From Magnetococcales bacterium (GTDB lineage: Bacteria; Pseudomonadota; Magnetococcia; Magnetococcales; Magnetaquicoccaceae): 43,698 bases of DNA. Below are positions 1-3,711 of this stretch, in pieces. The stretch lies in NCBI GenBank assembly GCA_015231915.1, contig JADGAR010000030.1, forward strand, positions 1 through 43,698. Reading direction: 5' to 3'. The position numbers and the translations under genes were made by a program. Under the pieces are notes generated by a model. It was not told the origin of the DNA. It ran no database searches and saw nothing but the letters and a program-made list of their open reading frames with translations. Within the stretch, counting starts at the first letter, position 1, and every line of letters begins with the position of its first letter.

Positions 1-709
1 TGTGTAGGGAGACGGCCCGCCCGGTCACGTCTTGGACGACCGCCACCAATGCCGGGAATCGTCCGATCTCGCGCCCGTCTTGCCAATAGGGCAACGCGGG
101 ATGACACCGCACCACCTCCGGCCCCGGCAAATCGGCCAGGATCCCATCCAAGCCGCGCGCTTTCATGTAGCGGCGGGCTGGTTCCGCGCCAGGGTGGTCA
201 AGCGGGAGTGATGCCTTCCAGGTGGCGCGCAATCGTGCTTTTGCTTGGTGGTCAGCGGTTGAGGGTGCATGTCTGGCGGGTGTCGGTCGCGCCGTGGCCC
301 GATTCCGGGGGGTGGATCGCTCCGATTCCCACCGCCACCCGGCATCACGCGCCAGCTTGAAAAGCGACTTGATGCCGATGCCGCCCCCCTCCCGGATGCT
401 TCGCCAAGTGTCGCGGGTGTCGGCGGGGTTGTACGATCCGCCGCCCCGGCTCCAATGGGCGAACAGGTGGAATCCCTCCTGGTCGCCAAGCGCATCCTTG
501 AGTGCCGCAGCGACGGTGAACCAGGTTTGCCGGTCGCATCCAGGATCGATTGCGGCCATCGCCGATTCGATTTCTGGCAGGGTGGGGGGTTGCCCACGGG
601 GGTCTGGCGCGGTATAATGCGTGCATGATGCATTTCCCCCGCCCGGCCCGCCAGCCGGGCTTTTTCGTTCGTCCATGGCCCCATCCCCGTGATGGGAGTT
701 GTTGTTCAT
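1..709 (-). CDS. Primase-like replication protein of a mobile element (PriCT-2 plus Toprim-type region), 3' end outside window
   Basis: The reading frame is open from an ATG at 709 to the left edge, 236 codons, so the C-terminus is missing. After about 40 low-complexity residues, the segment from roughly residue 45 to 110 resembles a PriCT-2 primase C-terminal domain (AIDPGCDRQTWFTVAAAL, then GFHLFAHWSRGG and a DTRDTWRSI stretch). Residues about 150-236 resemble the DUF7146 region that precedes a Toprim domain in phage and plasmid primases (ARRYMKARGLDG, then HPALPYWQDGREIGRFPALV). Such proteins prime or unwind DNA when a mobile element replicates. The gene lies 11 bases downstream of the AlpA-like gene on the same strand, so the two are probably cotranscribed. 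A promoter-terminator pair on the opposite strand sits inside its first codons. The family call rests on recognised motifs, not on a search. Confidence 0.75.
   Translation of the reverse strand, partial: MNNNSHHGDGAMDERKSPAGGPGGGNASCTHYTAPDPRGQPPTLPEIESAMAAIDPGCDRQTWFTVAAALKDALGDQEGFHLFAHWSRGGGSYNPADTRDTWRSIREGGGIGIKSLFKLARDAGWRWESERSTPRNRATARPTPARHAPSTADHQAKARLRATWKASLPLDHPGAEPARRYMKARGLDGILADLPGPEVVRCHPALPYWQDGREIGRFPALVAVVQDVTGRAVSLH
590..618 (+). promoter_or_regulatory. Sigma-70-type promoter antisense to the primase gene start
   Basis: TTGCCC at 590-595 and a perfect TATAAT at 613-618 are separated by exactly 17 bases. Transcription would begin near 625, pointing rightward against the primase mRNA. 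No protein gene lies downstream on this strand. The -10 match is perfect and the -35 matches 4 of 6, so the geometry is good, but activity is untested. Confidence 0.5.
625..667 (+). ncRNA. Candidate short antisense RNA over the primase start codon region
   Basis: A transcript starting about 7 bases after the TATAAT at 613-618 would immediately reach a GC-rich hairpin: GCCCGGC at 641-647 pairs with GCCGGGC at 654-660. Five T residues follow at 661-665, the layout of a Rho-independent terminator. The predicted RNA is only about 40 nt and is complementary to codons roughly 15-28 of the primase mRNA. Counter-transcribed RNAs of this kind control replication-gene expression in several plasmids. 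That parallel is an inference; the sequence itself shows only the promoter and the terminator. Confidence 0.35.
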
Positions 710-720
710 GGCTGACCCTG

Positions 721-930
721 TCAACCAGTCGCCTGCCCAGGGAATTGACCCGGACCTTTCATGGCAGCATGGAAAGCTTCCTCGATTTCACTTTCGGTCC
801 AATAACGGATATTATTGATAATTGTTGGTTGCGGTATAACTCCGCGTTTGATCATGCGCCACAACGTGGCATTGCTGATACCACCAAGCCGTTTGCAAAG
901 ATCGCCAGCTTTCACCCGTGACTGCAACAT
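721..930 (-). CDS. AlpA-type phage regulator (MerR-like winged HTH, excisionase-like)
   Basis: The 69-residue protein has the AlpA/excisionase HTH layout: a short N-terminus, KAGDLCKRLGGISNATLWRM as the helix-turn-helix, then a wing (PQPTIINNIRYWTESEIEEA). In phages and integrative elements, AlpA-type proteins bind DNA to activate integrase genes or act as recombination directionality factors. The start ATG at 930 has an excellent ribosome binding site (AGGAGG, six bases upstream). The gene is first in a unit with the primase-like gene. Upstream is a 258-base region carrying a tandem decamer array. A role in excision or in element gene control is inferred from family and context. Confidence 0.75.
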   Translation of the reverse strand: MLQSRVKAGDLCKRLGGISNATLWRMIKRGVIPQPTIINNIRYWTESEIEEAFHAAMKGPGQFPGQATG

Positions 931-2189: not shown

Positions 2190-3428
2190 TCAACTGCCCG
2201 CCTTCCTCACGGGCATCATGACCACGTTGCCATCCGCCTGCCCCGTGACGATGGCTTGCAGCCGCTTGCCCCATGCATCGAGCGCGGCCCGCTTTTCAGC
2301 GTCGTAACTGTGCCGATCACAAACCGCCGTCACGCCACGTTCAACGTGGTTGAGGATCTTGGACACCACCAGACGGGAAATCCCCATGCCGGTCATCAGG
2401 CTGGCCGCCGTGCGTCTCAAGTCATGGGGGGTGAACTGGCCGATGCCGAATTGCTCCTGGTTCCGCCGCACCGCATGATCAACGCTGGTTTCGGCCACAT
2501 GCTGGCCGGCCACGCGGGAAGGGAATAGCCAAGGAGAGTCCCCAGAAATGGCCTTGATACGTTCCAGGATCTCCAAGGCTTGCACGGAGAGGGGAACGCG
2601 GTGCGCCATCTTGTTCTTCGATTCGTCCACCGGGATGGTCCACATCTTCCCGGCAAGGTCGAAGTCATTCCAGGATGCGGCCAGCACCTCCCCCTTGCGG
2701 GTTGCGGTGAGCAATTGCAGCTTCAACGCCAGCCGGGAACCATCGGACATGCTCGCCTGGTCCAGACCGTTCCAGAAGGTCCGGATCTCGTCAGGGGAAA
2801 GCACACGCTCCCGTTGCACCTCCTGGACGGGTGGCCTTATTCCCGCACACGGGGAGACATCCACGATCCCGCGTTCTACGGCCCAATTGAACATCTTGCG
2901 GATGCAGGCAAACGTCCTGTTCGTGGTGATGGTCGCGCCCCGGTCTTGCAGATCGTCCAGGAGGGTGATGATATCCCGCTTGGTGACATCCTTGGCCTTC
3001 CGCTTGCCCCATCGGGGAACAACGTCCTTGTGGAGCATCCGGGCATCTTCCGGCCATGTGCGCTTGCGCGGCTTGGCCCATCGTTCGATGTACTCCTCAA
3101 CCAGTTGGACAATGGTCGCGGTCTGTTCTTCCTTGCGCTTGCTTTCTTCGGCCTTGCGTTCCTGTTCCTCCTGCCATTCGACCGGATCCACTCCCCGTTC
3201 CAGGCTGGCCCGCAATTTCGCGCATGCCTCCTTGGCTTCTTTCAGCCCCATGCCGGGATAAACCCCAAGACTGACGCGCCGTTTTTTTCCCTGGAATGTG
3301 TAAATGAACTGCCATGTTTTGGTTCCCGATGGAGCAACCCGGACGGCAAATCCGTCCGTTTCTCGCACATCATACCTTAGCGGCTTGATTTCCAAATTTT
3401 GAATAAATCGATCCGTGAATCTCGCCAT
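2190..3428 (-). CDS. Tyrosine-family integrase of the mobile element
   Basis: A 412-residue site-specific recombinase of the P4/DUF4102 type. Residues 1-85 form the arm-binding domain (VRETDGFAVRVAPSGTKTW). Residues about 105-195 are the core-binding helical domain, and 205-390 the catalytic domain. The catalytic set is visible: R244 (ATRKGE), H335 and R338 (HDLRR), H361 (LNHVERG) and the nucleophile Y375 (HSYDAEKR). A coiled, charged linker lies at 84-103. The ATG at 3428 has GGAG upstream. The gene sits about 200 bases from the tRNA-derived attachment site, as expected for integrases that use tRNA 3' ends. It appears intact, so the element could still be mobile. Confidence 0.93.
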   Translation of the reverse strand: MARFTDRFIQNLEIKPLRYDVRETDGFAVRVAPSGTKTWQFIYTFQGKKRRVSLGVYPGMGLKEAKEACAKLRASLERGVDPVEWQEEQERKAEESKRKEEQTATIVQLVEEYIERWAKPRKRTWPEDARMLHKDVVPRWGKRKAKDVTKRDIITLLDDLQDRGATITTNRTFACIRKMFNWAVERGIVDVSPCAGIRPPVQEVQRERVLSPDEIRTFWNGLDQASMSDGSRLALKLQLLTATRKGEVLAASWNDFDLAGKMWTIPVDESKNKMAHRVPLSVQALEILERIKAISGDSPWLFPSRVAGQHVAETSVDHAVRRNQEQFGIGQFTPHDLRRTAASLMTGMGISRLVVSKILNHVERGVTAVCDRHSYDAEKRAALDAWGKRLQAIVTGQADGNVVMMPVRKAGS

Positions 3429-3561: not shown

Positions 3562-3626
3562 GATATTTTTTGCATGTTTCGGGCATTTCATGAGCGTTCA
3601 AGGGAGCCAGGAAAGTGCTATTATGG

Positions 3627-3673
3627 ATGGATTCCTAATCCGTAGGCCTTGCGTTCAAATCGCGCCAGGGAGA
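3627..3673 (+). other. Attachment site: 3' fragment of tRNA-Arg(CCU)
   Basis: The sequence folds as the 3' part of a tRNA. The anticodon stem 3627-3631 pairs with 3639-3643 around loop TTCCTAA, whose anticodon CCT at 3634-3636 reads arginine codon AGG. A variable loop follows, then a T arm with TTCAAAT at 3654-3660. The 3' acceptor strand CAGGGAG and discriminator A end at 3673. The acceptor and D-arm 5' half is missing upstream, one T-stem pair is mismatched, and no CCA follows. This is the duplicated tRNA end left by integration. Since the fragment is at the right end on the plus strand, the complete tRNA should lie at the left end of the element, outside the window. Confidence 0.75.
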
Positions 3674-3711
3674 CAAAATTTTACATTATACTTCAACATG
3701 TCAGCAATTTG

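Follow-up and report, generated by a model that had tools for sequence, protein, structure and literature searches.

The window, that is the whole stretch of 43,698 nucleotides analysed here, begins within an integrated element, the primase gene of which is truncated by the end of the contig. Moving away from the primase, one meets an AlpA-like gene, a repeat array, a DUF2442 gene, a toxin-antitoxin pair of the HTH/RelE-like type and a tyrosine integrase gene. The primase matches PriCT_2 (E 5e-16) and DUF7146 (E 3.5e-14). The AlpA-like gene matches Pfam HTH_17 with an E value of 2.6e-4, below the family cut-off. The toxin-antitoxin pair, located at 1569-2179 on the minus strand between the integrase and alpA, consists of an MqsA/HTH-like antitoxin gene and a RelE-like toxin gene and is likely a maintenance module of the element. 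The features considered here are the following.

1-676, minus strand: primase gene (PriCT_2 and DUF7146), cut by the contig end at position 1; the ATG at 674-676 is favoured as start, an upstream in-frame ATG at 707-709 being possible.
590-676, minus strand: leader region of the primase, MDERKSPAGGPGGGNASCTHYTAPDPRGQ, overlapping the antisense unit and absent from most relatives that have no unit.
590-618, plus strand: antisense promoter read from the sequence, TTGCCC (590-595), a 17-nt spacer and TATAAT (613-618); TTG..-17-TA...T is kept in relatives.
625-666, plus strand: predicted antisense RNA of about 42 nt, with ends placed from the promoter and the terminator.
641-665, plus strand: intrinsic terminator GCCCGGC-CCGCCA-GCCGGGC followed by TTTTT, assigned from its fold and from compensatory changes in relatives.
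721-930, minus strand: gene for an AlpA-like HTH_17 regulator, immediately preceding the primase (weak Pfam match; same gene position in relatives).
1048-1104, no strand assigned: 5.7 copies of a 10-bp direct repeat, TTCAAGCGCG, in the interval from the alpA-like gene to the DUF2442 gene; these repeats may be iterons, a replication origin or binding sites of a regulator.
2190-3428, minus strand: tyrosine integrase of the element (domain match).

Opposite the beginning of the primase gene, the sequence-only reading had noticed a TTGCCC-17-TATAAT promoter followed by a GC hairpin and five T. All of these elements are indeed present on the plus strand at 590-665, antisense to codons 4 to 30 or so of the primase. 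The promoter agrees with the consensus at 10 of 12 positions. Twenty-two nucleotides separate its -10 box from a hairpin made of a 7-bp G+C stem (641-647 paired with 654-660) and a 6-nt loop, itself followed by the T-run (661-665). Because the terminator directly follows the promoter, an RNA of about 40 nt is the only possible product. Its predicted 3′ end would lie about 10 nt past the primase AUG (674-676), inside the reading frame, the alpA stop codon being about 55 bp further on. Taken alone, the hairpin is only moderately unusual (-16.1 kcal/mol, z -1.8 against shuffles), and Rfam covariance models compared with 590-709 gave no family match up to E 1. A joint scan for promoter plus terminator over both strands of the 43.7 kb returned the 590-665 unit only, where 0.13 units would be expected in order-1 random sequence.

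Two further copies are found in the same genome. The 48 bp at 633-680 recur with 100% identity on contig C55, and a 45-bp match at 98% identity is found on contig C120. In both cases the match falls at the beginning of a primase gene that codes for a Zn_Ribbon_Prim N-terminal domain rather than PriCT_2, with an HTH_17 gene upstream. Upstream of the common hairpin, the two copies diverge from the window and have promoters of their own, TTGCGC-17-TACAAT and TTGCGC-17-TACACT. The identity among the three sequences ends where the RNA and the start region end.

By combining BLAST, two covariance models (R1 and R2), protein-domain searches and inspection, 22 complete units were collected in 14 Magnetococcales genomes; two of them, L031 and L034, were reached through the protein search only. 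The spacer between the -35 and -10 boxes is 17 nt in all 22 units and TA...T is kept, while the TTG of the -35 box is found in 21 of them and replaced by TTT in one. T-runs are good in most units and weak in L025, L082 and L084. Wherever the start codon is settled, the distance from the primase ATG to the end of the T-run is 7-19 nt. An AlpA/HTH_17-type gene precedes the primase in nearly all cases, and the upstream neighbours tested for domains match Phage_AlpA or HTH_17. The primases themselves belong to several families: PriCT_2, Zn_Ribbon_Prim and DUF7146/Toprim_3, and also RepB_primase with D5_N (L006/L011) or Toprim_3 with AAA_25 (L017, L082). In L016, the primase behind the unit has no Pfam match. 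One locus, L167 (G006:C111, 3999-8743), contains two adjacent alpA-primase modules, one of the RepB_primase/D5 type and one of the Zn-ribbon/Toprim type, behind one integrase gene; each module has its own unit and a different hairpin.

The hairpin sequence varies among these units and its pairing is maintained, as in GCCCGGC/GCCGGGC, GCCCGGT/ACCGGGC, GCCCGTG/CATGGGC and GCCAGGG/CCCTGGC. In an alignment of 12 units, all 84 cells are paired, three of the seven pairs are altered on both sides, and the covariation score exceeds those of all 500 shuffles and of all slid controls. Quite different and longer hairpins occur in L005, L017, L031, L034 and L133; in L005, the promoter and flank are 95% identical to the window. 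The comparison of homologous primase genes, which the sequence-only reading had proposed as a check, thus shows promoter and terminator kept, with compensatory changes, before different primase families. This conservation across families argues for the suggested RNA of about 40 nt at the primase start. When the leader was recoded synonymously, the promoter survived in 0.1-12% of trials, depending on the locus, and at no locus did the complete unit survive in more than 0.75% of trials. Since synonymous recoding almost always destroys the unit, its conservation exceeds the needs of coding. The possibility of an untranslated leader was rejected, the reading frame being open in 22 of 22 units; L002 has no in-frame start codon between the unit and the core. 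An ATG lies at a fixed short distance in nearly all of them.

Controls came from 59 primase loci picked by protein domain alone, a few of them fetched more than once through different domains. A strict unit is present on the antisense strand at the 5′ end of the gene in 13 of the 59. On the sense strand at the 5′ end there is none (0/59), and none was found inside the gene on either strand (0/57 and 0/57). The remaining 46 loci, of the same families and within Magnetococcales, have no unit, which is therefore not essential to these primases. Most of the unit-less proteins begin directly at the core domain, for instance MNIYQIKDRAQGHWPSIL in L140 and MWDVEQIREAARGRWPEI in L150. Those with a unit carry an N-terminal extension of 30-45 residues, and phage P4 alpha and most listed phage and plasmid homologues do not align with the C120 primase before its residue 36-48 or so. 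Considering the recoding result together with the homologues and unit-less primases that have no extension, this extension looks like an RNA-coding sequence that is also translated. The suspicion that the low-complexity N-terminus is kept for RNA rather than for protein is in this way reinforced. Relatives that keep the protein and have no unit, held beforehand to speak against the unit, do exist; most of them lack the leader peptide as well, and we read them as support. Some loci are intermediate. L132 and L147 have a terminator without a promoter and L157 a promoter without a terminator, and these three may possibly be units in decay. The leader is present and the complete unit absent in L147, L151 and L156.

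Beyond these loci, the hairpin of the window, used as an exact pattern, had no match in genome_contigs or viral_contigs. A broader pattern gave 20 + 2 stretches, three of which are from Magnetococcales and two more of interest, L062 and L073; the other loci inspected look like ordinary terminators. A sample of 398 genomes from across the phylum gave 10 full-length matches outside the order; none is located at the beginning of a primase gene, and those inspected are ordinary terminators. At L062, in Thiodictyon (NZ_CAJAXH010000180.1, 3601-3674, plus strand), TTGCTC-17-TAGACT is followed by GCCCGGC/GCCGGGC-T5, on the strand opposite the beginning of a CHC2-zinc-finger primase gene and in a reading frame that differs from that of the Magnetococcales units. 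This single case may be convergent. The C120 and Thiodictyon primases had no viral relatives in the searches made for them. In IMG/VR phage contigs (L169, L178, L197), an antisense promoter and terminator were observed near the start of replication protein O genes, several relatives keeping only the terminator; these units are probably lambda-OOP-like. The phage O-gene lead L073 was set aside as probably of the same type: the true O start seems to lie further downstream, since in many relatives the alignment does not begin before residue 9-28 or so.

The fixed register with the opposing AUG, the full complementarity and the conserved stem-loop lead us to read the unit as a counter-transcript. 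It is likely, in our view, that it is the gene of a cis-antisense RNA of about 42 nt that base-pairs with the beginning of the primase mRNA, thereby restricting primase output. From the sequence we infer transcription, pairing, translational repression and a role in copy number or immunity, according to the following scheme. A sigma-70-type promoter within the primase coding sequence would fire back toward the start codon, and the terminator hairpin would stop the RNA about 10 nt past the AUG. The RNA would be perfectly complementary to codons 4-17 or so of the mRNA, which could form a mirror-image hairpin. Pairing would probably start in the loops or in the unpaired 5′ portion; initiation and early elongation would then be blocked and the mRNA opened to nucleases. 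A higher copy number of the element would raise the RNA dose and lower primase output, and such a dose dependence could act as a brake on copy number or superinfection once the element is excised. The unit would thus most likely be a brake on the replication of the element. Elements with the same hairpin, such as the window, C55 and C120 copies, should mutually repress, so that there is probably cross-immunity between elements sharing a hairpin.

The main rival, which we hold to be unlikely, is transcriptional interference. Here the promoter would matter and not the RNA: convergent transcription from within the primase gene would interfere with the alpA-primase operon, and the terminator would merely protect alpA from the antisense polymerase. 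Interference has been argued for pO and pR of lambda (PMC3985674), and the promoter is kept in every unit. However, interference alone requires neither a terminator fixed 7-19 nt from the AUG nor a stem-loop common to different primases. It is also quite improbable that, instead of repressing the primase, the RNA primes replication, is an origin transcript or opens the DNA close to an origin. Such an idea was once raised for lambda oop (PMC3985674), and the unit does lie in a replication region near a candidate iteron array. But with such a tight terminator there is no obvious 3′ extension, the repeats are about 400 bp away, no such array was found at the corresponding place of C55 or L167, and the unit follows the AUG of different primases. 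Very improbable, and largely contradicted by the data at hand, is an effect of protein or ancestry, in which a common N-terminal peptide (KSPAGGPG) or recent recombination at the start region would leave promoter and terminator incidental. The long identity and the same peptide in several copies would suit it, whereas elsewhere the peptide varies (SRWAGDPTG, NRRGAGNSPGG, TPGGNRG, SQGGHPG) with the hairpin still paired, synonymous recoding destroys the unit, and homologues do without the peptide. Finally, although terminator-like matches by themselves are about as frequent around the site as chance predicts (7 found for 6.7 expected), the fortuitous meeting of a promoter consensus and a terminator-like hairpin can hardly account for a joint unit expected 0.13 times per window that recurs at 22 loci and is absent from all controls of the 59-locus set.

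Coming back to the counter-transcript, the unit fits the general definition as far as sequence tells: it has its own promoter opposite the target gene at its 5′ end, and a stem-loop that doubles as terminator and, judging from the covariation, is under selection for pairing. By location or family it falls outside each of the named systems, the closest in function appearing to be repABC ctRNA, IS10 RNA-OUT and ColE2 RNAI, and less so lambda OOP and pSYSA asRNA1. In IS10, the antisense promoter lies within the target gene, as here, and fires outward over the translation start, limiting an enzyme of a mobile element. RNA-OUT is longer (about 70 nt), extends over both ribosome-binding site and start codon, and is directed at transposase mRNA, whereas the target here would be a primase. 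RNAI of ColE2 controls a replication protein that is itself a primase. It is carried by the untranslated leader of Rep, a protein of a different family, whereas the Magnetococcales unit lies inside the reading frame of PriCT_2, DUF7146 or Toprim proteins; no replicase domain was detected in the primases scanned. Phage P4 is a satellite-type element with small-RNA control of immunity, and its primase alpha is related to the present ones (30% identity to the C120 primase). Its CI RNA derives from a same-strand leader upstream of alpha and acts by transcription termination, in contrast with the antisense RNA predicted here.

In the repABC plasmids of alphaproteobacteria, the ctRNA (RepE, incA or inc-alpha) is about 50 nt long, its stem-loop being able to serve as terminator; it keeps the replication initiator in check and is responsible for incompatibility (PMC6090056). 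It is encoded between repB and repC and targets RepC, whereas the unit described here is nested in a primase coding start of integrative elements, its neighbours being the alpA-like gene and the primase. Lambda OOP, transcribed from pO, is likewise short and antisense, has a terminator of its own and lies between an HTH regulator gene and the first gene for replication. It is antisense to the 3′ end of the regulator gene cII and not to a replication gene (PMC3985674), whereas the Magnetococcales RNA would end inside the primase frame, within the first codons of the replication gene. In Synechocystis, asRNA1 of pSYSA lies beside a primase-helicase Rep gene and is tied to copy number; with its 153 nt, it is complementary to a separate small gene, ssr7036 (PMC9978351), whereas the RNA considered here would pair with the primase gene itself. 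The sequence-only reading knew of no described case for a primase of an integrative element; in agreement, the literature searched, which covered few subscription journals, yielded no description of antisense control of such primases.

A broader view may be put forward tentatively, as one that could well prove wrong. A leader of about 35 codons and its antisense RNA would form a mobile regulatory module of Magnetococcales elements, placed before several primase families, in which the hairpin would define an immunity or incompatibility type acting in trans. The same design may exist in a gammaproteobacterium, as the Thiodictyon locus with its other reading frame suggests. If the proposed function holds, this would be, as far as we have found, the first antisense RNA family nested in the coding start of a replicative primase, in integrative or satellite-like elements. 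The puzzling low-complexity N-terminus of these primases would be explained as RNA-coding sequence. A simple sequence rule, with a promoter at about codon 22-30 and a terminator about 10 nt past the AUG, could serve to find such controls elsewhere. At about 42 nt, the RNA would be very short for an antisense regulator, and the varying hairpins would offer a natural set of possibly insulated regulators, from which it may be predicted which elements of one genome should be mutually incompatible.
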